Shown one piece after another: positions 28,773-62,640 of a DNA stretch of 64,000 nucleotides (the first letter of the stretch is position 1; each line of letters opens with the position of its first letter). Origin of the DNA: Blepharisma japonicum (lineage: Eukaryota > Ciliophora > Heterotrichea > Heterotrichida > Blepharismidae). The translations under genes were made by a program, and so were the position numbers. The stretch lies in NCBI GenBank assembly GCA_949751835.1, contig CATKHK010000107.1:1-64000 (forward strand). Direction: 5' to 3'. The notes under the pieces were generated by a model. It had not been told where the DNA came from. It was given only the letters and a program-made list of their open reading frames with translations, and searched no databases.

Positions 28773-29024
28773 CTAAAATCCTCCTTTCATCTGCTGGAGA
28801 ACACGAATAACGCAGTTATTATTGAACCTCAATTGCTCCAAAGTAGCTGTTCCTTGAGTGCCTACGCTCAAATACTTATTCCCAAAAACCACACTTAATT
28901 CACCTGCACTTCCAAACATTTGCACGAATTGGGCGTGAAGTTGAGCATAAGTCCATGAGCTGTTAACTTGCATTGTGCGCTGTTGGCCGTTCATATCTTC
29001 TACTCTGATCGTCAAATCTGACAT
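28773..29024 (-). CDS. Ubiquitin-like protein with Gly-Gly-Phe tail
   Basis: 83 residues, ATG 29024 to TAG 28773-28775. Strands LTIRVEDMNG and TMQVNSS, Trp-headed helix WTYAQLHAQFVQMFG, strand ELSVVFGNKYLS, last strand CVIRVLQQ, then MKGGF. Known ubiquitin precursors end in Gly-Gly plus one or a few residues removed before use; this gene shows exactly that form and so is the best candidate for a conjugatable modifier here. No Lys at most ubiquitin chain-forming positions can be matched with certainty. USP genes on both sides could provide the processing enzyme (inference). Confidence 0.85.
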   Translation of the reverse strand: MSDLTIRVEDMNGQQRTMQVNSSWTYAQLHAQFVQMFGSAGELSVVFGNKYLSVGTQGTATLEQLRFNNNCVIRVLQQMKGGF

Positions 29025-31003: not shown

Positions 31004-34000
31004 ATGGCGCAAAGATATGATGTTAATACCTATACCTTAGCTCAAGTAATTCATGCACTGCGAACAATTCAAAGGCATTACAATATATTAGAAAACAGTT
31101 CTTCTCCTTTTTACAATGTGTTATTGAAACAAAATTCTGAGAGAATTTTAGATCTCTGCCTAATTAATGAGCTTAAAAATAGCATTCCGATCAAAGAAGT
31201 CCCTTATTCATTTATTGAACTGCTAATCTTAATTTGAAATTCAATAAATCCCATAAAGCAAATCTCTCAAGAAAATGATTCAGTATTTATTTTTTGTGAA
31301 AAATATAAATTATTGAATAAATTTTTGGAAAACAGAAAACTTAAGAATATTTTCTTTATAGTTAGCAAACGTCTCTGCAATAATGACTGAAATATTAAAG
31401 GAAACAACTATAAATGTTTATTTTTTAAACATAAAGATAATAAAAAATTTACTGTCAAACAAAACAATTCGAAGCAGCAAGTATACGAATATCGTTTTGA
31501 TGGGAGCAATGAAGATTGATATGTTTCTGGGTACATAGATTATGAGATACTGAGTAGGCAACCCAATCAGAAATGCTGAAATTCTATTAAAATCAATGGG
31601 ACCAAGAACACCGAAGATATAAAGTATCCGCCGATATATGATAAAGAAGGAATTCCAAATATATGAAGCTCTTGCTACCTTAATTCACTTCTTCAAGTAA
31701 TTGCAAATAATGATAAATTTGATGAAAAAATCCAGACTGTAAATGATTTATCACTATTATTGCTATCTGTTAAAAATTCTTTGCCTCATTATATAATTTA
31801 TAAACTTGCAAACATAGTTAAAAATCAATTAAGAATTGAATTCCCATGAGTAATTTTTATTTAGATTGAAAAATTCACTCAACAAGATTTTAAAGAGTTT
31901 TTGATGGTGTTAATAGGGAAACTTTCAGAATTTATTGAAATAGATACATTATTTAAGCAAGCCTCAAATTCCATTCAAAGAGATGAATATGATTTTCTCA
32001 GCATAGCGTCTCTACCAGAAAAAGATGAAGAAAAATGATTTTGGGAGCAAATCCTATATAAAGAAGCACCTTTTATTAAACTCAATAGTTACAGCAAGGA
32101 CAAGCCATATGCCTACTTTGAAAGAAATGACGGAACTGTTTATTTATTGGTAGCAATTTTTACTGAAAATGGACAAAAATGGATTTACAGCAGTTTCCAC
32201 AACCAATGGAAAAATATCAGTATCAATACCCAAAATAAAGAAGCAATAAAATTCAATGAAAAAACTTCATATTTTTATACAAAAATTAATAAAGAAGATC
32301 TTGATAAAGATAAGGTCAATAAGCAACTTTCTTCTGAGTGGGAAAGAGGAGAAAATGAATCAAAGAAATTGCCAAAAATAAATTTTAACAAAGAAGAAGG
32401 AAAAATAATTATATCCTTATATAAAACTCTAAGAATTATTATAAACCACTGTTGGACTCTCTCCACCTCAATAAAAGCAATTCAACAAGAAAAAGACAAA
32501 AACTATGAAAAATTAGTGCAAGAAAACCAAATTTATAAAGCTCAAATTGAAGCCTTAAATCAAGAAAATCAAACATTTAAATCGCAGCTTGAAGCCGCAT
32601 ATCAAAAGGATAAAACTTATATAGCTGAGATTGAAGCATTAAATCAAAAAAGCCAAATTTATAAAGCTCAGATTGAATCCTTATCTAAAGAAAGTCAAAT
32701 TTATAAAGCTCAGATTGAATCCTTAAATCAAGCAAGCCAAACTTATAAAGCTCAAAATGAGGGTTTAAATCAAAAAAAAATAAAATATAAAGCTCAGATT
32801 GAAGCATTAAACCAAAAAAGCCAAACTTATAAAGCTCAGATTGATGAAGCCTTAAATAAAAAAAGTCAAAATTATAATGATCAGATCGAAGCCTTAAATC
32901 AAGAAAATCAAATCATCAAATCTCAGATTAAAGACTTAAATCAAAAATGCAAAAATTATATAACTCAGATTGAAGCCTTAAATCAAAAAAATCAAGCTTA
33001 TATAACTCAGATTGAAACCTTAAATCAAGAAAACCAAGCTTATAAAGCCCAGATTAAGCCTTTAAATGAAGAAAATCAAACGATTAAATCTCTGGTTGAA
33101 ACTTTAAATCAAGATCATCAGAGTATTATATCTCAACTAAAATCATTAACTCAAGCGGTAGGAACGCTGAGGCCAGCAAAACCTAATCCAACTATAAATT
33201 ATCCATTAATTTTTGACAGAAAGAAATCAGGGATTCCTAATATAGGAAATTCTTGCTATCTTAATTCACTTCTACAAGTACTTGCAAGTAATAATGATTT
33301 TTGTGAGAAAATTCGACCGACAACAGATGAATTAATTTCTGTTTTGTCATTGCTATTAATGAACATTAGAAATTCTGAGACAAAAGATACAGAGCAGCTT
33401 GTTTTGTACTTTAAAAACGCATTTGATAGAGAATTTCCATGGGTAATCTTTATATAGTTCGGTAATAGCACTCAGCAGGATTCTAAAGAGCTGATGTTAT
33501 TACTTTTAGGGAAAATAAATAATATTGATCCTTTGTTTACGATTATATATAAACAGATCTTAAATTGCCATATTTGTTACCATAAATCAAAGATAACTGA
33601 CAATTATTTTTTTATCACAATCCTCAGTAATACATTCAGCTCTCTACAAGACTTTATAGATGATCTAAAAAAGCCAAAAATTTATAATAACAGTGAGAAT
33701 CTAATGTATTGCGAAAAATGCGAAAAACAACAAAATATGACTGGTGAATGCGAAGAAATTATTTGGCCATCTACAGTTACCTTTTATTTATCCTCAAAGA
33801 ATGGCAGCGTTAGAATTAATGAAGAATTAAACATTGAAGGAACTATTTATAGATGGTATGGATTAATATGCTATTATGGAGATTCGCAATTTGGGCATTA
33901 TATAGCATATACATGGGATACTAAGAATTGGACTGAATATAATGATATTCGCGCAGAGAGTAAGAGTAGTGGCAACGTTGATGTGGCACATGGATATTTA

Positions 34001-34027
34001 GCTTTTTATGCAAGGTCAGGAGAATAA
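31004..34027 (+). CDS. Large USP protein: USP-like half module, long coiled coil, full USP domain
   Basis: 997 residues when two 15-nt introns (31850-31864, 33443-33457) are removed and TGA is Trp; stop TAA 34025-34027. Residues 1-200: unknown helical N-terminus (YTLAQVIHALRTIQ). Residues 216-300: a USP front half with Cys box NIWSSCYLNSLLQVIA (C224; Asn and Thr of GNTC are replaced by Ser) and KFTQQDFKEFL, without a His box. Residues 497-710: about 15 repeats of QIEALNQ(E/K)xQxYKA, a long coiled coil. C-terminal USP: C746 in GNSCYLNSLLQVLAS, QQDSKELM, zinc-ribbon YCEKC, His box QFGHYIAYTWD, WTEYND. The second module looks active; the first is doubtful. Confidence 0.85.
31850..31864 (+). other. 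15-nt intron (first USP-like module)
   Basis: GTAATTTTTATTTAG following a TGA(Trp) codon, at the conserved place before the QQD motif; in-frame TAG if retained. Confidence 0.8.
32509..33150 (+). repeat. Coiled-coil-coding degenerate repeat
   Basis: About fifteen 39-45 nt units based on CAAATTTATAAAGCTCAGAT, coding for QIEALNQ-x-x-Q-x-YKA. The repeat is much shorter in the paralog at 34674 (one or two units near 36470-36540), so it expanded here. Confidence 0.85.
33443..33457 (+). other. 15-nt intron (second USP module)
   Basis: GTAATCTTTATATAG, conserved position, in-frame TAG if retained. Confidence 0.85.
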
Positions 34028-34673: not shown

Positions 34674-37403
34674 ATGGCGAAAAGACAAGATATTTACACT
34701 TATACCTTGTCTCAAGTAATTCATGCATTCCGAACAATTCAAGAACATTGCAATATACTAGAAGAAGGTTCTTCTCCTTTGTACTATGAGATAAAAAAAC
34801 AAAATTCTGATGGAATTTTTGATACCAACCTTCTGAATGAGCTTGAAAATAGTATTCCGCTAAGAGAAATCCCTTATTCATTTTTTGAGCTGCTAATTTT
34901 AATCTGAAATTTAGTAAATCCAGATAAGAAAATCTCTCAAGAAAATGGTTCAGTATTTATTTTTTGTGAAAAATATAAATCATTGAATAAAATTTTGGAA
35001 GACAGAGAACTTAATGATATTTTCTTTATAGTTAGCAAGCGTCTATATAAAATCGGCTGAAATATTAAAGGAAAAAACTATAAATGCTTATTTTTTAAGC
35101 ATAAAGATAATAAAAAATTTTTTGTCAAGCGAAACAACTGTGAGCAAGTATATTATTATGATTTTGATGGGAAAAATGAAGATTGATATATTTCTGGGTA
35201 TATAAATTATGAGCTGCTAAGCACACAATTTAATCAAATATCCTCAATTTTACAAAATCCTATTAAAAGCTATGAGATCAGGAGCATAAAAGGAAACAAT
35301 TACGATAAAAAATTTTCAAGAATTTCAAATATACCGAGTTTTAAATACTTTAATTCGCTGCTTAAAGCACTAGCGAGCAATGATGAATTTTACCAAATAA
35401 TCCAGACTGTGAATGACAAATTATTTGTTGATTTATCATCATTGTTGCTAGCTATTCAAACCTCTTTGCCTCATTATAAAATTCATAAACTTACAAAGTT
35501 ATTTAAAAATCAATTAGGAATTGAATTTCCATGAGTAATTTTTATATAGATTGAAAATTTCACTCAGCAAGATTGCAAAGAATTAATACTTGCCTTGATA
35601 GGGAGACTTTCGGAATTTACTGAAATAAATTCATTATTTGCAATTAAATATGAAGGAGGCGAATATGATTTTCTCTGCATAAATCGTCTTTTAGAAGAAG
35701 ACGAAGAAAAATGTTTTTGGAAGCAAGTCAAAGATAAAGAAGCACCTTTTATTATACTCAAAAGATTAAGTATAGAGAAGCCATATAATTATTTTAAAAG
35801 AAATGATGGAACTGCTTATTTATTGACAGCAATTTTTACTGATAATGAACAGAAATGAATTTATTGCAATTTCAGCAGTCAATGGAAAAATATCAATATA
35901 AATCCAGAAAATAAAGGAACTGAAATAATATTCAGTGAAAGAACTATATATTTTTATACAAAAATTGATAAAAATAATCTTGAAAAAGATAATGGTAATA
36001 AGTGATTTTCTTATGAATGAGAAAAAGGCCAAATTAAACTGAAGAAATCTCCAGAGATAAATTTTAGCAAAGAAGAAATCAAAGTTAACGTCACAGAAAA
36101 AATAATAAATATTGAAATTGGAATTGAAAGCCAGCAAGAAATTCAAAATAAAGAGGATATTATAAAAATCTTGTTAGAAAGCTTGACTATTGAGGAAATG
36201 AAAAAAACTGCTGAAGAGCTGAATAAATTAATTGAAGAAAAAGAAATTTGTGAAAAATTACAAAAAGATAGTGAAATCCCCCAAAAAATTCAATGGGAAA
36301 CCCTAACTTACGAAAGATTAGTAAGCTATTATTCAAGTCAGCCAAAAAAAATTAAAAATAAAAATGATAGCCCACAAAACAATATAAAAAGATACGAATT
36401 CCTAAAATTGATAAATGAAAATATAAATTTAAAAAACATTAATGCAATTCTACAGGAAAAAGACCAAAAAACTGAAGCTCTAAAGGAAGAAATTCAAAAT
36501 TATATAGCTAACATTGAAGCCTTAATTCAAGAAAATCAAAAAATTAAAAATAGAGAAAACCTAAATTATCCATTAATTTTTAACAGAAAAAAATCAGGGA
36601 TTCATAATTTAGGGAATACTTGCTATCTTAATTCACTTCTGCAAGTGCTTGCAAGCAACAATACATTCTGTGAGAAAATTAAGCCACTGAAAGATGAATT
36701 ATTTTCTACTATGTCATCATTGCTAGTGGATATTAGAAATTCTTGGTCTAAGGATAATACAAAAAAACTTTTAAGTTCTTTTAAAAGCAAATTTGATAAA
36801 GAATTCCCATTGGTAATCTTTATATAGCTAGGCTTCTTTCAGCAGGATTCTAAAGAAGTGATGATAATGCTTATAGAGAAATTATCAAATTTAATTGATA
36901 CTGATCCTTTGTTTACGATTATATTTAAACAGATCTTCAATTGCCATATTTGCTACCATAAAGCAAAGAAAACTGAAAAAAATACTTTTATAATAGTTCC
37001 CAGTAATAAATTAAGATCTATACAAGACTTTATAGATGATATAAAAAAGCCAAAAATTTTTACCGGCAGTGAGGGTCAATTATATTGCGAAAACTGCAAT
37101 AAACAACAAAATATGACTATTGAATGCGAAGAAATTATTTGGCCATCTACAGTTACCTTTTATTTGCCCTCAAGTAATGGCAGCACTTGAATTAATGAAG
37201 AATTAAACATTGAAGGAACTATTTATAGATGGTATGGATTAATATGCTATTATGGAGATTCGCAATTTGGGCATTATACAGCATATACATGGGATACTAA
37301 GAATTGAACTGAATATAATGATATCCGCGTAGAGAGTAAGATTAGTGGCAACGTTGATGTAGCACATGGATATTTAGCTTTTTATGCAAGGCCAGGAGAA
37401 TAA
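34674..37403 (+). CDS. Large USP protein: dead USP-like half module and C-terminal USP domain
   Basis: 899 residues with introns 35535-35549 and 36813-36827 removed and TGA as Trp; stop TAA 37401-37403. Paralog of the 31004 gene. The N-terminal 200 residues are alike (YTLSQVIHAFRTIQ). In the first USP-like module the Cys box is NIPSFKYFNSLLKALAS: Lys replaces the catalytic Cys, so this half cannot act as a thiol protease, although QQDCKELI is kept. The coiled coil is short (about residues 480-620). The C-terminal USP has C645 (NLGNTCYLNSLLQVLAS), QQDSKEVM, YCENC, QFGHYTAYTWD and WTEYND. A TGA at 37188 stands where the paralog has Arg. Confidence 0.83.
35535..35549 (+). other. 15-nt intron (first USP-like module)
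   Basis: GTAATTTTTATATAG after a TGA(Trp) codon; in-frame TAG if retained. Confidence 0.8.
36813..36827 (+). other. 15-nt intron (second USP module)
   Basis: GTAATCTTTATATAG; identical to the intron at 33443. Confidence 0.85.
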
Positions 37404-40760: not shown

Positions 40761-42389
40761 CTATGAGCTCATATAAAATGCAAGATAGCACGCACTGAAA
40801 TCTGGCTGCCAAATCTTTGAGTAATTATCTAAATATTCTCTCCATAAATCTCCATCTTTTGTATACGCAACATATTTTTTCACGTTTTCTAGCTGATATA
40901 AAGATTTTATTGCCCCATATAAGCAATATTTTGACCCCATATAATTAAATTCTTCAGGAAGAGTATATTGATTATCCATTGGCAATTTTAACATCAAAAT
41001 CGATGACAATTCAAAGGATTCTACTGTCCTGCTCATCCATTTATTTTGATTGCAAGAGATACAAAAATTTTCATAATAAACACTTATTTTTATAGCTTCA
41101 TCAATTTCTTCATTAATTGGTTTATTTGTAATATTCATAAACTCAATTATATTTGTATAGTCATTTTTTATAAACTCATGCCCAACGTCACAATTAATTT
41201 TATTCATCAATAATGGTGAAAATAATTTTTGATTTGGATAATATTCATACAGCTTATTTATGAGCCAGTTAATGAAATTAGTAGGGTCTTTTTCAAAGTT
41301 AGTCTATATAAAGCTTACATAATAAGAGTTCTGCATTAAAATTATGCTAAAATCTGATAGCAAATTATCAACGAAATTCTGGATATTTGGCTTTTTCATA
41401 GCAGAAAATAAAATACTTAAACTCATCAGCACTGGGTCTTTCGTATTTTTTGACAATTCAACAAATAGACATGAGCTGGCAAGAATCTGAATCGCAGATG
41501 TGAGATAGGAATTATCATTTATATCAGAAAATCCATGTTTTTGGTCAGGGAGAAGCGAAATATTAGAATTAAATAAATCACTGTTTCCTATTGTTCAGTA
41601 AGCTTGGCTTGAGCTGAGATGCTGATCGGCAGCTTGGTAAGTATAATAATCCGGTATTGGCTCATAATAAGCACTTTTTTCCCTTATTGGCTCATAATAA
41701 GCACTTTTTGATAAATCTAAATTACTCACATCTGGTACCTGGTTTTTGTTGACTTGGCTCGGATTTTCAATGATTTGGCTAAGTCTTTTTACCTCTTTTT
41801 TCAAATTATCCACGTCTTTTTCTAATTCTTTTATTTTTGCTGTGTGATTTTCTCTATTAATTTCTAACGTCCTCTCACTCCCTTGATTGTGCCCATTCAA
41901 TACACAGTTGCTTGCAATATCACCATAATTAATAAATTCGCTTATCAAGCTTTCTAGCTGCATTTGCACCTCATTAGTATCATTATTCAATAGGAGTTTT
42001 AGTAATGGGTCTTCTTCATTTGTCCTTATTTCTTTTGTTATCAAAATTTTTCTTATACATTTATCAATTATTCTGATTCCTGTGTCTAGTGATTTTATCC
42101 CATTTTTATTGATTTCTTCAAGGTTTTTCATATTTGTAGAAACTTCAGAAAAGAACTTTGATTTAATATTTTGGATTTTGGATTTTTCTTCTTGTAAAGA
42201 TCGTAGAATGCTTACTGTGGTGGGCTTGGAGCGCTCACGGTATAGATATTCAAATCTGTGAGACAAAGAGCTAGAAGTGGAGTGGGATTTTTTATGTCTT
42301 TTGCAAAAAACTAACTTTTCAGCTTGGCAGTCGCAAATGTACTTGGGTTTTTGCTGACAAGATGGGAAGCTACAAATATTGTAGTTCAT
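40761..42389 (-). CDS. B-box-like / coiled-coil / inactive USP fusion protein
   Basis: 537 residues: ATG 42389, intron 41304-41318 (GTAAGCTTTATATAG), TGA=Trp at the junction (about 41595), stop 40761. Residues 1-50 carry the B-box-like cluster (C6, C11, C19, C21, C29, H32, H36). Residues 55-215 are helical with a heptad-like stretch (KIKELEKDVDNLKKEVKRL). A Tyr-rich linker with a duplicated SAYYEPI follows. Residues 275-537 follow the USP fold, but the Cys box reads INDNSYLTSAIQILAS (Ser for Cys) and the His box reads VKKYVAYTKDG (Lys for His). The zinc-ribbon pair CISC and the terminal WREYLDNY are partly kept. Likely a pseudo-enzyme that binds rather than cleaves. Confidence 0.82.
41304..41318 (-). 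other. 15-nt intron
   Basis: GTAAGCTTTATATAG in the USP position, kept even in this catalytically dead USP module. Confidence 0.8.
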
Positions 42390-44151: not shown

Positions 44152-44298
44152 TATAATGATTTCTAATCATACTAATTAATATCATAATAAAATTATTATA
44201 AATAGTTTAAATTTAAATAATTATAAAATATTGTTTAGTCTAATATTAATGCTTATAAATTCTTAGTCTATAAGTAAGATATAAATTTTAGCATAATC

Positions 44299-46047
44299 TT
44301 ATCTCTGCTTATAAAAAAGCATATAGGCGCGATTATAATCAGGATCTTCTTCAACCACATAAGCGTTATACTTAATCCATCTTCTATTTTCATTTAGTAT
44401 AAATGAAATATAATAGCCAAGGCAATAGCATATAACTCCAAACAAGTCATATTCTTTTTCATCAGATCTTATATAAGTCTTTGGAACTCTCCCTTGATTT
44501 GTAGTATCTGTAATATAAAACACCAAATATTCTGGCAGTTCCAGGCTTTCTGTTAAGATTTTAGTCTTGATTGCATAACCGCATTCCTGACAATATATTT
44601 CCAATTCTGTTTCCTTTTCTTTTATATCTTGTATGCATTTTTCTGTGTCTAGCTTTTTATTCGGAGGTATAATTAAAAATAACTGCTGCTCTTCCTTTGT
44701 CATTTCATGACCTTTTTCACAAACAAATAGTTTATGTTGTTTTATCAAAAATAAATTTTTCTCTTCACATTCTGCGAAAGCGCTATAAATTAAAATATTG
44801 TATAATTCTTTGCAATCAATTATAGCTATATTTTTTATCTAAATAAAAGTTACCATAGGATATTTTTGATTTAGCTCTCTAGTAAAGTTATCAATATATG
44901 ATTTAAATCTACTTGGATGCCCATTCGATAAAATAATATTAAAAATTCGTAATAAGCATTTAAATACGTTGCTATTTGATTTTGATACAAGGTTTACAAA
45001 TTTTGGGATATTTGCGAGAATTTGAATAGCTGAATTCGATAATTGATAGTTAGAAATCCCAACATGATTTAATCTGTGTATTTTTTCTTCTTCAATAGAA
45101 TGAATATTACGAAAGTTTTGAGACGATGGTTGCCTATTTTTCAAACTATTTTGTTGCTGCTCATAGATTCTTTTGATTTCATCTTTTTTGCTTCACAAAA
45201 TAGAAGTGTTTGGGATATTTATACCTAAACTTATAATTTTTTTGGCAATTATTTCTCTCTCTAATAAATTAGTAATAGTTGGCCTTCTGCTCTTTTCTTT
45301 TTCTAAGCATCAGTCAACGATAAATCTTAGATCATCTGAGTATTGATCTCTAATGGGCTCATGCTGCTCAAATTGTATTTTCATGGAATCTCCATTAAAA
45401 GGGATTTCAAAATTGCACATCTGATATAAAACACATCCAAGGGCCCAAATATCACTCTCATAAGAAGGTTTATTATTATTATTCCATATTTCTGGAGCAT
45501 GGTATTGAAAAGTTCCTGCAGGAGCTGAAGCAATCTCGTATCGTGAAAGCCCAAAATCCCCAATTTTTATGTCTCTATTTTTATCTAAAAATATATTTTG
45601 TGGCTTGATATCTCGGTGAATAATTTTATTTGAATGTAAGCATTCAAGTCCAAGGCAAATTTGTATAAAATACTTCCATATTTCGTCTTCTTCAAAAGGT
45701 TGAAAAACTGCTGCTCGATCATTTATAGCTTTATCGAGCTCTCCATTTTCACAGTATTCCATGATGAGGTAAACTTGATTGTTTTCCTCGATATTACGCT
45801 TTAAATGGACGGTGTATGGGCTGTCTATCTGAGAAAGTATTCTTATTTCTGTTTCTATATTCTTCTTGCTTGTCTTATCTGCAGGAGATCTTAGAATTTT
45901 CATTGCATATAGCATTTGGCTATTCGTATCATTTTTGCACTTTTCTTTTAAAATTAAAACTGCCCCATAAAAACCATATCCAATTATAGTTCCGCAAGCA
46001 AAAAATTCGTTAGCTATTTCGCTTGGTACATTTATCATAACCATCAT
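44299..46047 (-). CDS. NEK-like protein kinase fused to an inactive USP domain
   Basis: 577 residues in one frame: ATG 46047, intron 44839-44853 (GTAACTTTTATTTAG), TGA=Trp at about 45307 and 45192, stop 44299. Residues 15-270 are a Ser/Thr kinase: Gly loop GYGFYG, Lys50 in YAMKI, HRDIKPQN (D146), DFG (D164), APE, SDIWALG; NEK-like by its MEYCENGEL hinge and IWKYFIQICLGL helix. All catalytic residues are present. Residues 300-340 are a polar linker. Residues 345-577 match the USPs at 51-64 kb, but the GNTCY core of the Cys box is deleted (GISNYQLSNSAIQILA) and the His box lost its His (CYCLGYYISFILNENRRW). The USP part may act as a ubiquitin/Ubl reader or dimer module. Confidence 0.82.
44839..44853 (-). 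other. 15-nt intron
   Basis: GTAACTTTTATTTAG at the USP position within the kinase-USP fusion gene. Confidence 0.8.
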
Positions 46048-46560
46048 ATTTAGTGTTTATACATATTTTAAAATCTACAAATTTAGAAATTAAAATGTAA
46101 TAAGCACATAATATATCAGCTAAATTTTACTTTTCTTTTCAATTATGATGTTATTTTTATTTTAATTAGAAAAGAATATGCATATATAACAAGAAAGGCT
46201 ATCGCTTTTATTTCTTATTTACAAATAAGAATTATTAATCAACAGTTATTTGCTTATAATAGGGTATGCTTAATAGAAGTTCAGAGGATTTATTGTTTAG
46301 AATTCTAAGCAGATATAGCAATTTTATGAGATTTATGTATATTCATATGGCCATTATTTATAATAAATTTGTATATTATTTAATGTTATTGTAGGCAGCG
46401 ACGCCTCCAATTGACAATATCTGTCTTTTTGTACTTTTTTCATCGATTTATATTTTAAAAGAATTTATAGAAATCTAAAACTTGTAACAAAATATTGTAT
46501 GCTTTTGCTTGCTGCTATATTGTACAATGCAAAATTAAAGGATTGTATAAGCATTAATTA
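46048..46560. repeat. Dispersed repeat, copy 1 (5' flank of kinase gene)
   Basis: Matches 49786-50220 along nearly its whole length (TAGTGTTTATACATATTTTA, CTTATTTACAAATAAGAATTA, GCAGCGACGCCTCCAATTGA). Shorter related stretches lie at about 56340-56745 and 62270-62760. It holds the kinase promoter, but its presence away from kinases shows it is a repeated block in its own right. Confidence 0.75.
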
Positions 46561-46574
46561 AATTCTAATAGGCA

Positions 46575-47240
46575 AACTTTGCGCATACCAGTAATTATAT
46601 CATCTATTTCCTCTTCAACGTCAACTTCTACTTTCCTGGTTTTTCATTATTTCCTTAAATTCTCCCCATTCAAAATTATTTCTTCAAAATTTTCACACAG
46701 CTCGTCCGATTTCTCGAGATTTCTCAGTAATTTAATAAATCTAAATCACTCGCTATATATCCCCTTACAAGGATTTTTCTAAAAATATATAAAAATTTCA
46801 AAAATAATTCTTCTATTCATTTTGCACTTTGTAAAGTTTATACCTATGCTCAAGCAATCTTATAATAATTTTTTCTCTAATCAAGGACTCAGATTTATTG
46901 TCTACCAGTTCAGCACCTGCTTGCAATTTTCCCCTCAATCTTATTAAAATCCGCTTGCTTACGGACACTGTCATCTTCACACTGGCCTTCTCATCTTTCA
47001 CTACCTCCTTCATCTAGAACTCCGATATACAGTCTACCGCTTCTCATTCTGAATCATAAATTTTTCTCCAATATTTTTGAATTCCACTTTTTCATGGGCA
47101 CTTTTTATGTTTACCCAAAACTTCACCTTTTTCACCAACTTCTTCATCTATGCTAGTTTCTACATCTCCTAAGACTTTGAAATCAGCTAATCAATTTATC
47201 AGCTGGATAAATGTTCAAAGAGCTCGATAAAAAAATTCAA
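46575..47240 (-). pseudogene. Unidentified coding relic, copy 1
   Basis: The minus strand carries open pieces with protein-like composition shared with the copy at 50235-50865: GDVETSIDEEVGEKGE near 47140, a 66-codon piece KMTVSVSKRILIRLRGKL (46813-47013), and an acidic end RKVEVDVEEEIDDIITGM near 46600. Frames are broken by stops such as the TAG at 46813. No family recognised. Confidence 0.5.
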
Positions 47241-47407
47241 AATAAGCTGCACACTCTTAAAAACACCAATGTTGCTAATTAGATGAAAAAATAGTGTAAA
47301 AGAATATGCTTATAGCTTTCTAGTGCTAATAATTATCAAAAATCTCTCAAAAAAATATTAATTATTATAAAACTGATAATACACTTATTAATTATCTTAA
47401 TAATTTC

Positions 47408-48430
47408 TTATTTCTCCACATGCCGATAAAATGCCATGTAGATATAATTATAATCAGGCTTCTCATCAGACACAAATATGTCATTATACTCTCTCCATAT
47501 TTCACCATGTAATGTATAAGCTATATAATGCCTGCATGATGGATAAAAACAAATCACCCCATAAAGCTCATATTCTTTGCCTTTAAATTTCTCAGAGTTC
47601 TTAATATTCCTTATCTTTGGGTTTCACTAGAAAAATAAACAGCTAAAATCTTCGGAAGCTTATATTTTGTGTAAACTCGAGTGTTCTTCAATGCATCACA
47701 TGTATTGCACTACAAAATATTGTCACCATTAAAGACGCTTTTCTCTTCTGAAATATTTATAAAGTCACTAATATCTTTATCTAATCTTCCTGGGACTACT
47801 AAAAATGTATTCACCTCTACTTTTTCTTCTTTATGCCCTTTTCCACAAGTAAAAGTTTTATATTTCCTAATAAAAAATAATTCCTTTAGGCCTTCATTAA
47901 TTTCTGTGAATTTATTGATTATAATTGTATATACCTCTTTACTGTCATTTTGTCTGCCTAGTGTAAACTATTTAGAAAATACGTGTGAATATGCTTTGTC
48001 GATGATTTGTAAAAAGTTATCAATTTCCAGTCTAAAATTAGCTTCTGAGTTTCTATTTATCATATTGATAATACCAAATAGAGTTCCTGGGAGCTCAGAG
48101 TCTTGATTTAAGTATTTGTAAATTTCTGGAGTGCTTGCTAAAATTTGTAGAACTGAATTTAAATAGCAAGTGTTTCCATTATTTGGGATACCTAATTTTC
48201 TAGGATAATTTGCTTTTTTGTTGGAGTTGAATATCCATCTGAAGCATCTTGCTATTAAACCGCATATCTATCTGCAGCATCTAGCTGTTAAACCATATGT
48301 CCATCTGAAGCAGCTCCAAAATTGAGTAATAAGGTATCAGAGTCATAACTTAACCTTGGAACGTCAACTTTAGCGTCTTTTCTGCTCTTTTTCTTTTTCT
48401 TCTTCTTCTTCTTGCATTTTTATATATTCA
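47408..48430 (-). pseudogene. USP pseudogene with repeat linker
   Basis: Readable USP: Cys box GIPNNGNTCYLNSVLQILAS, a 15-nt intron GTATTTTCTAAATAG (47969-47983), GRQNDSKEVYTII, then TAG (47711-47713) at the LYC position of the zinc ribbon, a frameshift near 47620, and the end RHYIAYTLHGEIWREYND...YMAFY to TAA 47408. Upstream (48190-48310) a threefold repeat CA(A/G)-GATGCTTCAGATGGATAT with Gln codons turned to TAA/TAG. One nonsense codon and one indel in an otherwise good gene suggest recent decay. Confidence 0.78.
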
Positions 48431-48684
48431 ATAGGGTAATTTATAGAATCTGAAATGGTGGCTGAACATTTGACTTTCTATAAAATCGGAGTATACTGAT
48501 ATTGCTATGGCTCTAATTCATTAGAATTAAGCACATGCTTACTAGAAAATTAATTAAAATTAGCTGTCTTAATAATCACCAAATTTTGAAAATAATCTGC
48601 TTATAGTCAAAATTTTAGTAAAATATCTTTACGCATGAAATTAAATTAGAAAAGTTAAGACTTATCTCACCTTCTAAATAAATT

Positions 48685-49785
48685 CTAACATCCTTTAAGA
48701 TGTTTGATAATAGTTAATCTTTCACAATCTTCTATTCTAAGCTCTCTGAGTGTTTTATCTTTTGAGACTTGAAAGAGCAAAATATTGCCTCTAGCAATAA
48801 CATAATTTTCATCAGTCTGTATCCCATCTACCCCATTTCTTTCAAGTTCTTCACATAATTGTTTATATGTTCAATAAGGGTTTGCCCTTATACATTTCGT
48901 ATCTCCAGTGGAATCGTCTTCTACAATTATACAAATCTTACGAGACAACAGTACAGAAGTGTTTGGGATATTTATACCTAAACTTATAATTTTGTTGGCA
49001 ATTATTTTTCTCTCTAATAAGTTAGTAATAGTTGGCCTTCTGCTCTTTTCTTTTTCTAAGCATCAGTCAACGATAAATCTTAGCTCATCTGAGTATTGAT
49101 CTCTAATTGGCTCATGCTGCTCAAATTGTATTTTCATCGGATTTCCATTAAAAGGGATCTCAAAATTGCACAGCTCATATAAAACACATCCAAGGGCCCA
49201 AATATCACTCTCATAAGAAGGATTATCATCATTCCACATTTCTGGAGCATAGTATTGATAAGTTCCTGCAGCCTGGTATAGTGAAAGCCCAAAATCCCCA
49301 ATTTTTATGTCTCTATTTTTATCTAAAAATATATTTTGTGGCTTGATATCTCTGTGAATAATTTTATGTGAATGTAAGTATTCAAGTCCAAGGCAAATTT
49401 GTATAAAATACTTCCATATTTCGTCTTCTTCAAAAGGTTGAGAAATTGCTGCTCGATCACATATAGCTTTATTGAGCTCTCCATTTTCACAGTATTCCAT
49501 GATGAGGTAAACTTGATTGCCAACCTCGATATTACGATTTAAATGGACGATGTATGGGCATTTTACCTGAGAAAGTACTCTTATTTCTGTTTCTATATTC
49601 TTCTTGCTTCTTTCATCTGCAGGAGAATCTAGAATTTTCATTGCATATAGCGTTTGGCTATTCGTATCATTTTTGCACTTTTCTTTTGCTAAGAAAACTG
49701 TCCCAAAAGCGCCAGATCCTATATTTGCATTTGGGATAACTTCAAACTCGTTAATTAATTCGCTTGGTAATTCTATCGTAACCAT
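48685..49785 (-). CDS. NEK-like protein kinase with C-terminal ubiquitin-like domain
   Basis: 366 residues: ATG 49785, TGA=Trp at about 49060 and 48870, stop TAG 48685-48687, no intron. Residues 15-270: kinase with full GSGAFG loop, Lys50, HRDIKPQN (D146), DFG (D164), APE and SDIWALG. Residues 283-366 match the free Ubl family: ICIIVEDD strand, YWTYKQLCEELERNG (Trp-headed helix), TLRELRIEDCERLTII, and the same KGC end (HLKGC). The kinase half is about 85% alike to the one at 44299-46047, so two sister kinases gained different ubiquitin-system domains. The Ubl could be intramolecular or serve recruitment. Catalytic activity is expected. Confidence 0.83.
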
Positions 49786-50220
49786 TATATTTAATGTTTA
49801 TACATATTTTAAAATCTACAAATTTAGAAATAAAATGTACATATATAACAAGAAAGGCTATCGCTTTTATTTCTTATTTACAAATAAGAATTAATAATAA
49901 GCAGTTATTTGCTTATAATAGGGCATGCTTAAGAGAATTTTTCAAGGATTTATTATTTAGAATTCTAAGCATATATAGCAATTTTATGAGATTTATGTAT
50001 ATTCATATGGCCATTATTTATAATAAATTTGTATATTATTTAATGTTATTGCAAGCAGCGACGCCTCCAATTGACAATATCTGTCTTTTTGTGCCTTTTT
50101 TATCGATTTTCATTTTAAAAGAATTTATAGAAATCTAAAACTTGTATTGTATGCTTTAGCTTGCTGCTATATTGTGCAATGCAAAATTAAGGATTGTATA
50201 AGCATTAATTAAATTCTAAT
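49786..50220. repeat. Dispersed repeat, copy 2 (5' flank of kinase gene)
   Basis: Near-identical to 46048-46560, apart from short gaps. It includes the kinase promoter and the GCAGCGACGCCTCCAATTGA block. Confidence 0.8.
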
Positions 50221-50224
50221 AGGC

Positions 50225-50865
50225 AAACTTTGCGCTTCCCAGTAATTATATCATCTATTTCCTCTTCAACTTCTACTTTCCTGATTTTTCATTATTTCCC
50301 CAAATTCTCCCCATTTAAAATTATTTCTTCAAAATTTTCACACAGCTCGTCCAATTTCTTGAGATTTCTCAGTAATTTAATAAATCTAAATCACTCGCTA
50401 TATCCCCCTACAAGGATTTTTCTGTAAATATAAAAATTTCCATAATAATTCTTCTATTCATTTTGTCCTTTGCTAAGTTTATACCTATACCCAAGCAATC
50501 TTATCATAACTTTTTCTCTAATCTTGGACTCGAATTTATTGTCTACCACTTCAGCACCTGCTTTGCAATTTTCCCCTCAATCTTATTAAAATCCGCTTGC
50601 TTACGGACACTGTCATCTTCACATTAACCTTCTCATATCTCGCCACCTCCTTAATCTAGAACTCCGAAATACAGTCTACCGCATCTCATTCTGCTTCATA
50701 AATTTTCCTCCAATATTTTCGAATTCCATTTTTTCATGGGCACTTTTATGTTTACCAAAAATTTCATCTTTTTCACCAACTTCTTCATCTATGCTAGTTT
50801 CTGCATCTCCTAAAGCTTTTGTCTGCATATCCACTTCGAAATTATTTTAAATCAATATTATCCGT
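50225..50865 (-). pseudogene. Unidentified coding relic, copy 2
   Basis: Parallel to 46575-47240, extended at its 5' side: FEVDMQTKALGDAET, SIDEEVGEKDEIFGKHKSAH, EKMEFENIGGKF, then stops. The two copies decayed independently: copy 1 keeps the central 66 codons, copy 2 the N-terminal part. Confidence 0.5.
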
Positions 50866-51182: not shown

Positions 51183-52838
51183 TTATCTCTGCTTATAAAA
51201 AAGCATATAGGCGTGATTATAATCAGGATCTTCTTTATTCACATCAGCATCATTATATTTAATCCATTCTCTATCTTCATTTAAGGTAAAAGCAATATAA
51301 TGGCCAGATTTTCCATCACCATAATAGCATATCGCTCCAAATAAGTCATACTCTTTTTCATCAGCTCTTATATAAGTCTTTGGAATTCTCCCTTGATGTG
51401 TAGTGTCTGCAATATAAAACACCAAATATTCAGGCAGTTCTAGGCTTTCTGTTAACATTCTAGTATTGATTGTTTCGCCACATTCCTGACATATTGATTC
51501 CAATATTGATTCATTTTCTTTTATATCTTGTATGCATTTTTCTGAGTCTAGCTTTTTAAATGCAGGTATAACTAAGAATAACTGAGGGTCAATATTTCTC
51601 GATTTGTGACCTTTTTCACAGATAAATAGGTTAGTTTTTTTTATCAAAAACAAATTTTTCTCTTCTGATTCTGTGAAAAAGTTGTCAATTAGAATATTGT
51701 AAAGTTCTTTGCAATCATTTTGTTTCATTATCGTAAACTAAATAAAAACTACCATGGGATAATTTTGTTTAAGCGCATTAATTAAAGCTCTTATCAGAGG
51801 TTTAAAGCTATTTTTGGAATTATTTGATAGAACAAGGGCAAAAATTTGTGATAAGCATTTAAATACGTCGCTATTTGATTTTGATACAAGATTCACAAAT
51901 TCTGGGATGCATGCAAGTGCTTGAATAGTTGAGTTTAAGTAACAGGTATTTCCATAATTAGGGATCCCAGCATTATGAGGAAATGTATTTTCCGGAGGTG
52001 TAATTATAATGTTACCTCCTGTAGAATTGTCAGGATTATTTGGCTTTCCTCATGAGGATCTTCTTTTTTCATCTTGTTTTATAGTATCGATACAGTGACT
52101 TTCTTTTTTTTGCCCTTTTTTACCTAAAGGTTGGCTTTCTTCATAATTAGTGATCCCAGTATTCTGAGTAAATTTTATACTGAAAGAAGCAATTTCGTCA
52201 TTTAATCCTTTTGAATGAAAGCGCTTGCTCTCTTCATAGCTAGAGTTCCTTGACTCACATTTTGAGGATCGTTTTTCTTCTTGTTGTTTTATAGGAGGGA
52301 TAAGATGACTTTGTTCGCTCAGTTCTTCCTTAATTAAAGGTTGGCTTTCTTTATCATTTTGAGAAGATATCTTTTTAGGTAATGTGGTCTCTTTATTTAA
52401 TCCTGCAGAATCGATATGATTACTCTTTGGAGCTCCTTGTGGAATTTGTTTTTTTTTATTTTGTTTTGCAGGAGTGCTAAGATCATTTTTTTGAATCTGT
52501 CCTTCTTTACTTGAAGGTTGGTTTTCTTCAGAATTAGGGATCGCAGCATTATGAGTAGATTCCTTTTTGGAGGTAGTCACTTTGTCATTTTTCTCTTTAG
52601 GATCTATATTCTTACTTTCTTTGCCAGATCTCTTTGATTTTCCTTTTCGGGATCGCTTTTTTTTATTTTGTTTTCTAGGACTTTTTTCCTTAACTAAAGG
52701 TTGGTATACTTCATTTATTGAAGAATTATCACTATTATTGCTACTTCGTTTTTTATATCACGCCACTATCCCTCCTATAATGCTTGCAGTGCTTACAATA
52801 CCGAAAGCAACCAGTATTCAGAACACCCATGTCTCCAT
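51183..52838 (-). CDS. Membrane-anchored USP, cassette gene A
   Basis: 546 residues: ATG 52838, intron 51738-51752 (GTAGTTTTTATTTAG), TGA=Trp in the membrane helix and linker, stop TAA 51183-51185. Residues 4-27 (WVFWILVAFGIV...GGIVAW) form one transmembrane helix, followed by KKRSS, so the bulk should face the cytosol. Residues 30-280 are a Lys/Glu/Gln/Ser-rich linker with recurring modules (PLxKExxxxxSHLIPPIKQ, GLNxEI). USP domain: C299 (NYGNTCYLNSTIQALAC), KQNDCKELYNILID, zinc-ribbon-like SICQEC, H508 (KSGHYIAFTLNEDR), WIKYND and YMLFYKQR end. All catalytic elements are present. Confidence 0.85.
51738..51752 (-). other. 15-nt intron
   Basis: GTAGTTTTTATTTAG, identical in the B and B' genes. 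Confidence 0.85.
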
Positions 52839-53991
52839 TTATATATAATTCAAATATGCGTTTGTTTATTTAGAATTTACACAGAGCATAATTCCCATGC
52901 AATCAAATAAATTGGCAATTTACTTAAAGCATAATTTAAGAATACATCAAACTCTTATTTAATTGCAAATTAATAATTATCGAACTTTTCGAAGTAAATA
53001 AATTTTTATGCTAAGCAAAATAAATTTTGTAGAATCTTCATTTTGGCTTTTGAAAATTATTTAAGTATTTCTAAGATATAAAACCTATTTAAATTTTCAA
53101 ATATTGATAATAATTATAAAGAAAAGTCCTTTGATTAGAGTTAGATTAATTATTCTTTAGTTAGTTTATAAACGAAAATTTAACAATAAAGAAAAATTGA
53201 TGCTTCATAGAAAATATATCCTATTCACATAATGATAGGAGAAAATTGTCTAGGAAAAATAGTGGTCTCGAATAATTGAATTAACACTAAAATTAAATTT
53301 GTAGAAATGGAAATCAATATTCAAAATGCTACTGAAGGATGCTTATTTTGGTTGATTGAATTTTTTTTATGATAACTTTATTCCTTAGGAGAAATATTTT
53401 AATTATCATTTCATTTACTTTTTATAAAACTTTCACATTATATAATGATCTTTATAGGATGATTATTTTCTTCTTTAAATGCAAAAGAAAGACAGCAAGA
53501 GCAAATCAAAATGTCCACTGCTATGGCCCAATTACTCTTGGTGGACAAAATGAGAGAGGATGCCTGATGTGAAAATGAGCTGAGTGAAATGGGTTTTTTA
53601 TAGGTGAAAGGATGCACAATGGATAGGAACTTGAACAAAATGGATTAGTTGCTGTGCATGCTTTAGATAATTTTCTAATCAAAACTTCGAAACTTGTAAA
53701 TCAATATTTTTCAATTTTAATTAACATAAAAGTCTTTAAAAATTGTTATATGTATATAATGGTATTCATGAAGATTTTCTTTGGAAACAAATATTTTTTA
53801 TTTTAACGATACAAATGAATATAGATTTTAATAATATTATGAGCTTAGTGATAAGGAAGTTCTCATATAATAGTCATTTTATATATAAGTTTATATTTAT
53901 TGTATACCCAGCTATTTTTATATTTATTCTATTAATTCTGCCTATGCTAAAAATAATTAAATTGATGCATAATTTTCTTAAGGTTAAATTT
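52839..53991. other. Spacer A-B with a repeated coding scrap
   Basis: Duplicated as 59075-60165. Around 53470-53690 the plus strand keeps an open, protein-like frame with TGA as Trp (CYGPITLGGQNERG, WNGFFIGERMHNG, HALDNFLIKTSK), reminiscent of a MORN-type W-NG-F-GE pattern. The duplicate at 59650-59870 has a frame change. No start or clear family; probably a relic. Confidence 0.45.
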
Positions 53992-55578
53992 TTAGCTTAT
54001 GGTTATTCTCTGCTTATAAAAAAGCATATAGGCGTGATTATAATCAGGATCTTTTTCATCCACATAAGCGTCATTATATTTAATCCATTTACTATCTTCA
54101 TTTAAGGTAAAAGCAATATAATGACCAGAAATTCCACCACCATAATAGCATATCACTCCAAACAAGTCATACTCTTTTTCATCAGCTCTTATATAAGTCT
54201 TTGGAACTCTCCCTTGATTTGTAGTATCTGTAATATAAAACACCAAATATTCAGGCAGTTCTAGGCTTTCTGTTAATATTCTATTATTGATTGCATAGCC
54301 GCATTCCTGACAATATATTTCCAATGTTGATTCATTTTCTTTTATATCTTGTATGCATTTTTCTGAATCAAGCTTTTTATTTGGAGGAATAGTTAAAAAT
54401 AACCTTATCTCTTTCTTTTTCATTTCATGACCTTTTTCACAAACAAATAGTTTGCGTTGTTTTATTAAAAATAAATTTTTCTCTATACATTCTGATTCTG
54501 TAAAAAAGTTGTCAATTAGAATATTATAAAGCTCTTTGCAATCATTTTGCTTCATTATCATAAACTAAATAAAAACTACCATGGGATAATTTTGTTTAAG
54601 CCCATTAAGTAAGGCTCTTATTAGAGGTTTAAAGTTTTCTTTGGAAGCATTTGATAGAACAAGGCCAAAAATTTGTGATAAGCATTTAAATACGTCGCTA
54701 TTTGATTTTGATAAAAGATTCACAAATTTTGGGATGCATACAAGTACTTGAATAGTTGAGTTTAAGTAGCAGGTATTTCCACAATTAGGGATCCCAGCAT
54801 TATGAAGAAATTCCGTGTCAGGGAATTTTATTTCTTTATTTAATTCTGCCTCAATATTCTTATTTTTTTCATCAAGATTATTTGACTCATCTTGTAGGGA
54901 ATTTTCTTCATTTTGTCTAATAGGAGGGATAAGATGACTATTTTGGCTCGGTATTTCCTTAATTAAAGGCTCACTTTTTGTGTAATTAGGGATTTCAGCA
55001 TCCTGAGGAAATTTCCTTATAGGGAATATGATTTCTTCAGAGTCGATCTGCTTATTTTCTTTATGGTCAGGATTCTTTGGCCCTCCTTGTGGGGGATATC
55101 TTTCTTCATTTTGCTTATTTTCTTTATGGTCAGGATTTTTTGGCCCTCTTTGTGGGGAATATCTTTCTTCATTTTGTCTTATAGGAGTCGTAGGATAAAT
55201 TTCTTGGTTCAGTTCCGGCTGAATTAAAGGTTGGCTTTCTTCATAAATAGGGATCTCATCATTATGAGAAAAAATATTTCTGGAGGAAGTGGTTTCGTCA
55301 TTTAGTGTTTTAAAATCGGTATGAGTACTTTCTTCATAGTCAGGGCTCTTTTTCTCTCCTTGTAAGGATATTTTTTCTTCATCTTGTTTTTCAGAAGCGG
55401 CAAGATTACTTTCTTGGTTCGGTTCTTCTTTAACTAAAAGCTGTCCTTCTTTATTTGCTGGATGATAATCACTATTATTTCTACTTCGTTTGTTATATCA
55501 TATGATTGTCCCTCCTATAATACCTCCAACACCTACAATACCGAAAGCAATCAGCATTCATAACACCCATGTCTCCAT
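53992..55578 (-). CDS. Membrane-anchored USP, cassette gene B
   Basis: 523 residues: ATG 55578, intron 54565-54579, stop TAA 53992-53994; TGA=Trp at residues 7 and 27 of the start region. Membrane helix 4-27 (WVLWMLIAFGIVGVGGII...). Linker 30-250 contains near-identical repeats (PQRGPKNPDHKENKQNEERY then PQGGPKNPDHKENKQ). USP domain: C270 (NCGNTCYLNSTIQVLVC), KQNDCKELYNILID, IYCQEC, H481 (ISGHYIAFTLNED), WIKYND, YMLFYKQR plus ITIS. Much of exon 1 has no Met codon, yet it is open throughout. A 41-bp tandem repeat spans the start codon. Key residues intact. Confidence 0.85.
54565..54579 (-). other. 15-nt intron
   Basis: GTAGTTTTTATTTAG at the conserved USP position. Confidence 0.85.
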
Positions 55579-55644
55579 TTCTATATAATTAAAATATGCG
55601 TTTACACCCATGTCTCCATTTCTATATAATTAAAATATGCGTTT
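55562..55644 (-). repeat. 41-bp tandem duplication across the start codon of USP-B
   Basis: The block ACACCCATGTCTCCATTTCT...ATGCGTTT occurs twice in a row. On the minus strand the upstream copy gives ATG (55619) GAG ACA TGG GTG TAA, a five-codon upstream ORF METWV that ends before the real start at 55578. Confidence 0.85.
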
Positions 55645-57016
55645 ATTTAGAATTTACACAGTGGAGCATAATTACCATACACTTAAACTAAATTAGCTAT
55701 TTACTTAAAGCATAATCTAAGAATACATCAAGTCTTATTTAGTTGCAAATTAAATAATTATCAAACTTTCTAAGTAAATAAATTGTTATGCTTAAGCAAA
55801 ATAAATTTGTAGAATTTTAATTTTTGCATTTTAATTTTATCTTTAACTAATTATTTAAGTATTTCTAAGATATAAAAATAAAATACGAAGAAAAGTCCTT
55901 TATTAGAATTAGGTATAACTATTGCTTTAGTTAGTTTATAATCGAAAGATTGATACTATATAAATGCTTCATAGAAATATATTGTCTGTATAATGATAGG
56001 AGAAAATTAAATAGGAAGAATAGTTATCTTTAATGATTGAATTATCACTAAAATAAATTTATAGAAATGGAAATCAATTATTAAAAAGCAGCTGATTTTT
56101 CTATGCAATCTTTATTGCTTAATTTCCCATTTGGGAAATTTCCAATAAAATAGTTGAAGGAGATAGGAGAAAACATAATTTATAGATCCTTGAATTTGAT
56201 TTTTATAAAATAATATTCATAGGATGTTTATTTATTTCTTTAAATGCAAAAGGAAGACAGCAAAAACAAATCAAAATTTTTGCAAGGACAAAATAAGAAT
56301 TTCTTATTAAGGCTAAGCAAGAAACATCAAGTGATATATTTTTTAAATCTATATAACAAGAAATGTCATCGCCAATTTTCTTGTACATTTCTTATTTACA
56401 AAGGGCGATTAATTTAAAAATAATAATGAAATTTTGATTTTACAATTAATAACTATTCGTTTTTTGCTTATAATAGTGCATACTTAAGTAAGTTCAAATG
56501 ATTAACTTATATGACTATAAACACATCATTTATGGGTTATGCTCCATTATTTATAATAAATTTCTCTACTATTTAATGTTAATACTGGCAGCGAAGCCAA
56601 CAATGGAAATATCTGTCCTTGTGTGTCTCTTTTCCATTAATTTCATTTTAAAAACTTTTAACAATGTATTCTAGTTTTAGCCTGCTATTATATTGCATGA
56701 TATAAAATTCAAAGATTGTATAAGCCTTAAAAGGCTTTAAGAATTTCTCTATGTATAATGGTGCTCACAAGAGTGAATCAGGGAAATTTTCTGGAAAACA
56801 GATATTTAAATATAAAAATGATGTAAATTTTTTTAATAATATTATAAGCTCTCAGTAATAAGGAAAACTCTCAATAATATAGATATCTTATATGTAAATT
56901 TATATTTCATTAACTCTCGATCTTTTTTCAATTTACTAAAAATTTAGCCATGCTCAAAATCATTAAATTTATACATAAATTCCATATTTTTTTAAGAAGG
57001 AATCTTTAACTTATGG
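55645..57016. repeat. Spacer B-C with dispersed repeat copy 3
   Basis: The first part (to about 56090) matches 61680-62140 (B'-C' spacer). From about 56340 to 56745 lies a diverged copy of the dispersed repeat (TTATTTACAAAGGGCGATTA, GGCAGCGAAGCCAACAATGG). A 61-codon minus-strand ORF (56203-56388) is non-conserved. Confidence 0.6.
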
Positions 57017-58072
57017 TTACCTCTGCTTATAAAAAAGCATATAGGCATGATTATAATCAGGATCTTCTTCATCCACATAAGCGTCATTATATTTAATCCA
57101 TCTTCTATCTTCATTTAAGGTAAAGGCAATATAATGTCTAAGATGTACATAACAGCATATCACTCCAAACAAGTCATACTCTTTTTCATCAGATCTTATA
57201 TAAGTCTTTGGAATTCTCCCTTGATTTGAAGTATCCGTAATATAAAACACCAAATATTCAGGCAGTTCTAGGCTTTCTGTTAACATTCTAGTATTGCGTA
57301 TGCCGTCGCATTCCTGGCAATATATTTCCAATGTTGTTTCATTTTCTTTTATGTCTTGCATGCATTTTTCTGAGTCTAACTTTTGATATGGAGGTATAAC
57401 TAAGAATAACTGTGACTCTTCCATCGTATTTTTGTGACCTTTTGAGCAGATAAATAGAATACGTTTTTTTATCAAAAAGAAATTTTTTTCTTCACATTCT
57501 GCGTATAAGCTGTCAATTAGAATACTATAAAGTTCTTTGCAATCATTTCAAACACCTATTCCAAACTAAGTAAAAATTACCATGGGATAATTTTGTTTAA
57601 GCCCATTAACTAAGGCTTCTATTAGAGGTCTAAATCTACCTTCGGAAGTATTTGATAGAACAAGGGCAAAAATTTGTGATAAGCATTTAAATACGTCGCT
57701 ATTTGATTTTGATACAAGATCTACAAATTCTGGGATGCACGCAAGTGCTTGAATAGTTGAGTTTAAGTAGCAGTTATTTCCATAATTAGGGATCCCAGCC
57801 TTATTCGGAAATTTCATTTTAGGGAATTTTATTTTTTCATTTAATCCTGCAGAATCGATAAGCTTACTTTCTTCATTTTGTTTTCTAGGATCTAGAAGAT
57901 GACTTTGTTGGTTCTGTCCCTGCTTAACTAAAGGTCGGCTTTCCTCATTTATTGAATAATTATCGTGTCTATTTTTGCCTTGATTTTTATATAAGCATAC
58001 CCCTATCACTGTCCCTATAATGAAAATGATAATTATAAACCCTACAATCAGATATCATATGTAATCCTCCAT
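57017..58072 (-). CDS. Membrane-anchored USP, cassette gene C
   Basis: 346 residues: ATG 58072, intron 57566-57580 (GTAATTTTTACTTAG), stop TAA 57017-57019, TGA=Trp at residue 6 and after the intron (GIGVWNDCKEL). A clear membrane helix at residues 5-31 (IWYLIVGFIIIIFIIGTVIGVCLY). The linker is only about 60 residues. Cys box NYGNNCYLNSTIQALAC (C101; Asn for Thr before Cys), IYCQEC, His box HLRHYIAFTLNEDRRW (H308), WIKYND, YMLFYKQR. The Thr to Asn change is conservative, so activity is still likely. Confidence 0.85.
57566..57580 (-). other. 15-nt intron
   Basis: GTAATTTTTACTTAG at the conserved USP position. Confidence 0.85.
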
Positions 58073-62529: not shown

Positions 62530-62640
62530 TCTTTGTGTGACTATAAAAAATATGGCTAAGCAACAAATTCACGTAAAAATCATCGTTATTGGTTCCGTCG
62601 ATTCTGGAAAGAAGTATGAAAAGGAAGATCTTTGTGTGAC
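62530..62640 (+). pseudogene. Elongation factor 1-alpha 5' fragment in a repeat, with flanking direct repeats
   Basis: From ATG 62552 the plus strand reads MAKQQIHVKIIVIGSVDSGK, a clear match to the start of eukaryotic EF-1alpha including the GxVDSGK P-loop, then KYEKED, recalling the later FEKEA segment, as if about 40 codons between had been removed. The 12 nt TCTTTGTGTGAC stand at 62530-62541 and again at 62629-62640. The related sites at 46420, 50085 and 56615 lack the insert. It looks like a 99-bp insertion of EF-1alpha sequence with a duplicated target. Confidence 0.75.

Follow-up and report, generated by a model that had tools for sequence, protein, structure and literature searches.

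How two neighbouring genes with closely similar kinase halves came to end in opposite partners of the ubiquitin system, and whether the resulting fusions are put to any use, is the question raised by a stretch of DNA from the ciliate Blepharisma japonicum. The stretch (hereafter the window) is the first 64 kb of contig CATKHK010000107.1 (C107, 133.9 kb; GenBank assembly GCA_949751835.1), and the genome in which we searched comprises 224 contigs and 45.2 Mb, including the contigs referred to below as C9, C21, C46, C52, C53, C66 and C170. One of the two genes joins a NEK-like protein kinase to a USP domain devoid of catalytic residues (kinase::pseudo-USP), and the other joins the twin of this kinase to a ubiquitin-like domain, or Ubl (kinase::Ubl). 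By comparing the DNA of the contig with itself, and the encoded proteins with their relatives, we arrive with high confidence at the structure of both genes and the origin of both fusions.

Structure of the two fusion genes

Translated with UGA read as Trp and with one 15-nt intron removed from the first, the two genes yield the proteins of 577 and 366 residues that the original prediction had described, with both domains of each protein in one open frame. The introns are of the GT..AG type, and in the two fusion genes UGA takes the positions expected of a kinase Trp and of the conserved Trp of the Ubl. The 577-residue protein consists of a NEK-like kinase (residues 19-265; PF00069, E 7.5e-58), a linker and a UCH/USP domain (residues 338-574; PF00443, E 4.4e-9, 36.8 bits against a cut-off of 23.9), and in the DNA self-comparison kinase homology stops near 45202 while USP homology starts near 45037. 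In the 366-residue protein the kinase domain (residues 20-260; Pfam E 3.5e-59) is followed by the Ubl tail. That the kinase and C-terminal parts might be separate transcription units within one open frame is very improbable: each predicted gene has one start and one stop with no in-frame stop between its domains, and in kinase::pseudo-USP the region of the former Cys box shares an exon with the kinase. For Blepharisma stoltei, the published genome is described as having 41 Mbp, introns of 15-16 bp, and UGA encoding Trp (PMC9942806).

Identity between the two kinase parts is 80%, as against 49% for the next kinase of the genome (112 of 1101 candidates scored), and the coding regions of the two fusions lie 2.6 kb apart, somewhat closer than the 3 kb first estimated. 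Among the best 60 of 2760 solved sequences the nearest is NEK1 (4.8e-44), followed mostly by NEK7 and NEK2, which agrees with the NEK-like assignment made at the outset; no IKK or TBK1 chain is found among these 60. The translations of both kinases contain the Lys of AMK, HRD and DFG. The idea that both kinases represent one gene duplicated by mis-assembly was ruled out, since the copies are ~7-9% divergent and are followed by different DNA.

The USP domain of the first gene had been predicted to lack the catalytic Cys and His; a loss confined to these two residues was ruled out, because Asp is absent as well. The triad has been lost entirely, the Cys to a 3-residue deletion, the His by replacement with Tyr, and the Asp to a 1-codon deletion, and the CxxC pair C169/C172 is retained. 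Into a tree went 34 USP domains, each 200 residues or longer, taken from C107 and a 30-kb part of C46. Of these, 31 have a complete Cys-His-Asp triad; the deficient ones are the kinase fusion, with all three residues lost, the gene at 40761-42389, with Cys and His lost, and gene model 16971, which ends before the Asp. The kinase-fused domain nests in an eight-member clade with the 51-67 kb genes (support 100/100) on a branch of length 0.25, compared with 0.09-0.17 for six of the seven other members and 0.5 for the gene at 99201. A profile built from twelve USP stretches of the window matches USP15, USP8, USP5 and others in the PDB.

The Ubl tail of the second gene has no Pfam match of its own at E<=1, yet profile-profile alignment (hhalign) connects it to the free Ubls of the window (96.8%, E 3.1e-10), so that its placement in their family stands. 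Its best relative, by contrast, is the second domain of a double-Ubl gene at 80509-81090 of the contig, outside the window (74-75%), and derivation of the tail from the free Ubls at 5-29 kb was rejected on account of this closer relative. Two of three free-Ubl proteins tried reached PF00240, at only ~0.013, and a profile of 22 Ubl domains matches polyubiquitin chains strongly and natural single ubiquitins at ~0.002-0.013 (best 60 of 300). Given a tail that is without a Pfam match but is linked by profile to the free Ubls, and thence to ubiquitin, we judge the Ubl label to be sound but remote. Since the C-terminus is Lys-Gly-Cys instead of Gly-Gly, the kinase-fused Ubl is predicted not to be conjugatable in the usual way.

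Table 1. Features of the window and of the related gene arrays (contig C107 unless stated; −, reverse strand; +, forward strand).
Feature	Position	Strand	Remarks
Kinase::pseudo-USP fusion gene	44299..46047	−	577 aa once single intron removed
USP part without Cys, His, Asp	44299..45037	−	paralogue of 51-67 kb USP array
15-nt intron GTAACTTTTATTTAG	44839..44853	−	same alignment columns as introns in related USP genes
NEK-like kinase coding part, duplicate block A	45202..46047	−	
5' flank common to copy B	46048..47178	−	71/1029 bases differ; 9 indels, 1 a multiple of three
Block U, inverted copy of contig 80844-82567	47169..48931	−	second Ubl coding part, spacer and USP gene
Decayed USP copy within block U	47399..48590	−	frame breaks, in-frame stops
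Kinase::Ubl fusion gene	48685..49785	−	366 aa, intronless, C-terminus Lys-Gly-Cys
Ubl part, residues 285-366	48685..48931	−	38/247 bases differ from donor, no indel
Duplicate block B	48955..50819	−	kinase part and 5' flank
Three complete USP genes (51183-52838, 53992-55611, 57017-58072)	within 51183..58072	−	triad in 3/3; relatives of USP half
USP-like fusion gene	40761..42389	−	Cys/His-rich and coiled-coil-like N-terminus; USP-like domain without Cys, His
Free Ubl ending Gly-Gly-Phe	28773..29024	−	
C46 gene order	C46, 60001-86000		E2 62575+, E1 63896+, USP 67560−, Ubl 71044− (GGN), USP 72181+, E2 75388+, E1 76628+, USP 79906+, Ubl 82469− (GGKNK..), E2 82972−
C170 gene order	C170, 7001-22000		E2, USP, E2, USP, E2, E1

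Origin of the fusions

Self-comparison resolves the locus into three blocks lying end to end: A (45202-47178), U (47169-48931) and B (48955-50819). Blocks A and B are 89-91% identical, so that the duplication of the kinase parts together with their 5' flanks (about 1.1 kb) was correctly foreseen. The inserted segment, U, measures 1.76 kb and is 88-90% identical to 82567-80844, which holds the second Ubl domain of the double-Ubl gene and the next USP gene. Because the blocks adjoin end to end, the Ubl tail of copy B came with block U. The USP half (44275-45037, on the 3' side of block A) resembles the copies of the 51-67 kb array at 78-81%; its synonymous distance (dS) to six relatives is 0.42-0.50, as against 0.07 between the kinase twins, and it therefore split off before the kinase duplication. 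The simple exchange of C-terminal domains after duplication that was originally proposed is thus not borne out. Divergence is 6.9% between the A and B flanks and 7.1% between U and its source outside the Ubl, from which we conclude that the kinase duplication and the insertion of U are of similar age. The kinase::USP gene is probably the older fusion, and the few bases shared at the junction of A with U would be compatible with template switching.

These events would have taken place among USP, Ubl and E2 genes arrayed in tandem and changing fast. A NEK-like kinase gene would first have been joined to a USP gene, and the joined USP domain would then have lost catalysis without giving up its framework. 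A subsequent duplication would have copied the kinase half together with its 5' flank, and an inverted segment carrying Ubl and USP sequences, placed at the 3' edge of the kinase copy, would have supplied the Ubl tail. Read in this order, the locus is a domain fusion caught in the act, with the donor, the acceptor, the junctions, and the decayed by-products of the birth of kinase::Ubl all on one contig.

An upstream repeat is common to the kinase copies (46223-46557 and 49882-50208) and to array sites at 56544-56730 and 62336-62768; near 62.5 kb it enters a short frame with a putative resemblance to the start of elongation factor 1-alpha.

Substitution patterns and maintenance

An array that recombines often may shed chimeric genes as by-products, and both fusions could be young examples that are drifting, as yet unbroken, and functionless as fusions. 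We regard this as quite possible. Between the kinase twins the nonsynonymous distance (dN) of 0.106 exceeds the dS of 0.068 (dN/dS 1.55), so no purifying selection is visible on kinase residues since the duplication, and the Ubl part has dN/dS 1.0 (dS 0.18). Coding substitutions (77/831) are not fewer than those of the flank (71/1029), and kinase codons beyond 100 match the flank rate (22/425 sites, p 0.24). The contig also carries a broken USP copy, along with two kinase copies that are broken (64648-65223 and 4064-4324), and the twins themselves are young, with a dS of only 0.07. Because the kinase twins and the Ubl tail evolve no more slowly than neutral DNA, drift has to be taken seriously as an alternative to maintenance.

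Drift is opposed by the reading frames. The coding parts of the kinases differ by three indels, all of a length divisible by three, compared with one of nine in the flank (Fisher p 0.018), and none of 76 kinase substitutions created a stop (chance 0.046), both tests being modest; equally modest is the evidence from the Ubl part, with no indel in 247 bases, where about one would be expected, against six in the other 1473 aligned bases of block U, whose USP copy is broken. Moreover, the catalytic motifs of the kinases are present, and the dead-USP branch, with dN/dS 0.40 (bootstrap 0.28-0.63; five live relatives 0.54-0.92, with wide limits), was under constraint, though this constraint may largely predate the kinase duplication and may in part be older than the fusion or than the loss of the triad.

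The excess of change is concentrated in two places, which brings in an arms race, that is, diversifying selection on the kinases and the Ubl tail (through allorecognition, defence or selfish arrays) with the fusions serving as decoys or sensors. In the N-lobe (98 codons; dN 0.21, dS 0.10), 44/236 nonsynonymous sites have changed, more than in the flank (71/1029; one-sided p 1.6e-7) and more than among synonymous sites (5/58; p 0.045); the Ubl part differs from its donor at 15.4% of positions, as against 105/1473 (7.1%) in the remainder of block U (p 4.4e-5); and the paralogous families are large. Such excesses could reflect diversifying selection or gene conversion, each comparison being one of two sequences. 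The excess of dN over dS across the whole kinase is not significant (p 0.10), and the raised synonymous change in the Ubl part fits conversion from an unseen paralogue better, so that we think an arms race unlikely.

Possible roles of the twin kinases

We tentatively favour the reading that these are two real fusion genes, produced by segmental duplication and insertion, whose kinases are most likely steered to the ubiquitin or Ubl pathway of the surrounding array. The dead USP domain would serve as a reader, holding ubiquitin or Ubl whether free or conjugated. The Gly-Cys-ended Ubl tail would be a fixed tag for docking onto USP-type domains, perhaps also onto the dead USP of its twin. In favour of this reading are, besides the open frames, the kinase motifs and the constraint on the dead-USP branch, the retained CxxC pair, the sister array on C46 with all four kinds of ubiquitin-system gene, and the precedents of TBK1 and of the pseudo-deubiquitinases described below. 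If the pair works, it would be a signalling switch made from both partners of a Ubl/USP pair. We infer from sequence the order of events given above, and likewise that the fusions would be expressed, would bind, and would be steered in this way. Several observations weigh against this reading: the dN/dS values of the kinases and the Ubl part with no visible purifying selection, the decayed kinase copies nearby, and the possibly early origin of the constraint on the dead USP. Neighbourhood and domain type are the only pointers to steering, and "dead" is a prediction, since some triad-less USPs are reported to be active.

Partial counterparts are known for each fusion. In TBK1, the kinase is reported to span residues 1-307 and the ULD residues 308-384 (PMC8994244). 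Like TBK1 and the IKKs, kinase::Ubl carries its Ubl (residues 285-366) directly behind the kinase; unlike them, its kinase is NEK-like by sequence search, there is no coiled-coil part (the protein stops with the Ubl at residue 366), and the Ubl was recently taken from a neighbouring Ubl gene. Pseudo-deubiquitinases are described as scaffolds or allosteric activators, and USP39 and USP52 as lacking the canonical triad, with some such USPs said to act (PMC10919355). The kinase-fused domain resembles USP39 and USP52 in having the USP fold with triad residues lost, and differs in being fused behind a protein kinase within a young local array and in lacking all three triad residues, two of which align to deletions.

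Elsewhere in the genome, a by-eye comparison of match lists found no further scored kinase match within 2 kb of a USP match (the nearest being ~11 kb apart, on C52), and since the kinase list covers 112 of 1101 candidates, other kinase fusions may be missed. Among 19 loci of kinase relatives (L003-L021), none of the 16 with a gene model ends in a Ubl or USP domain, judged by eye; nine of these 16 end in a Kelch-like tail, also judged by eye, which in the one tested in Pfam (L003) fell below the cut-off. Among the titles and abstract openings listed by searches of an open-access library, none reports a kinase-USP fusion, such a pair, or eukaryotic arrays of the kind described next, which is weak evidence of absence.

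The surrounding USP, Ubl, E2 and E1 arrays

USP-like matches number 81 in the genome, 36 of them on C107, 22 on C46 and five on C170; of 127 E2 matches, the same contigs hold eight, four and three. ThiF-type E1 matches (24 in the genome) include four on C46, from which two full two-repeat genes are read, two on C170 (one gene), and none on C107. The E1 at C46 63896, the sole one run through Pfam, contains ThiF, FCCH, 4HB, SCCH and UFD domains and is nearest to UBA1; identity to it is 78-85% for its array relatives (one on C170, the other C46 gene and an interrupted gene on C53) and 47% for the E1 on C9, presumably the housekeeping E1. Of the fifteen E2 matches in the arrays, twelve were read as genes (six from C107 and three each from C46 and C170), and all twelve have the active-site Cys and the HPN motif.

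Further free Ubls in the window lie at 5076, 21582, 24557, 25315 and 26522. The C-termini of 14 Ubl genes, the kinase fusion included, read Gly-Gly in eight, Gly-Cys in five and Gly-Ser in one; Lys-Gly-Cys is the ending at 5076, 25315, 26522 and 48685 in the window and at 80509 on the contig, and all five are predicted to escape conjugation of the usual kind. All eight Gly-Gly Ubls carry residues past the Gly-Gly, as precursors would. Another Ubl-like frame, at 90920, stands outside this count.

The arrays could form a lineage-specific Ubl conjugation system, with Gly-Gly Ubls matured by USPs, a dedicated clade of UBA1-type E1s, and the array E2s, in which the twin kinases would be a signalling arm; we think this less likely than not. 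One twin would then bear a non-conjugatable Ubl and the other a dead USP able to hold it, so that the two could bind one another or join targets marked with Ubl. Ordinary ubiquitin is itself encoded by a large family in this genome (150 scored matches), and the arrays may therefore still act on ubiquitin. Bacterial Bil operons and the Caldiarchaeum ubiquitin cluster are reported to bring together genes for Ubl, E1, E2 and deubiquitinase (PMC11354881). The C46 array holds the same four kinds of gene, but in a eukaryotic-type genome with tiny introns and a UBA1-type E1, with a USP where Bil is reported to have a JAB-type enzyme, and as several tandem copies spread over both strands, not as one operon. 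Arrays of E1, E2, Ubl and USP genes in a genome of eukaryotic type would be a natural test case for a new Ubl pathway splitting from ubiquitin.

Other genes of the window and genome

The three USP genes at 51183-58072 start with a hydrophobic stretch that, by eye, resembles a membrane anchor. Two double-USP genes (31004-34027 and 34674-37403) have a short, defective first USP copy and a second copy with the full triad; the first copies are below 200 residues, and the C-terminal half is missing from both and the Cys from one. The protein of 40761-42389, whose Cys/His-rich N-terminus we take to be B-box-like, matches no Pfam family at cut-off and was matched in the USP searches of the genome. 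Proteins encoded in 7042-15812 share a Cys/His-rich start, presumably also B-box-like, followed by tails that are TPR-like, Kelch-like (below the Pfam cut-off at 13983) or both. A similar Kelch-like tail stands behind NEK-like kinases elsewhere in the genome (L003, L004, L006 and others), and because such tails recur behind both B-box-like starts and NEK-like kinases, module shuffling seems common.

Ubiquitin-like matches lie beside a USP match at C66:151087-158409, and about a dozen E2 matches follow in a row at C21:79768-92030. None of six telomere-like words tried is stacked at the ends of contig C107. The G+C content is 29.0% in C107 and 29.2% in C46 60-86 kb, versus 32.1% across 28 kinase loci elsewhere in the genome.

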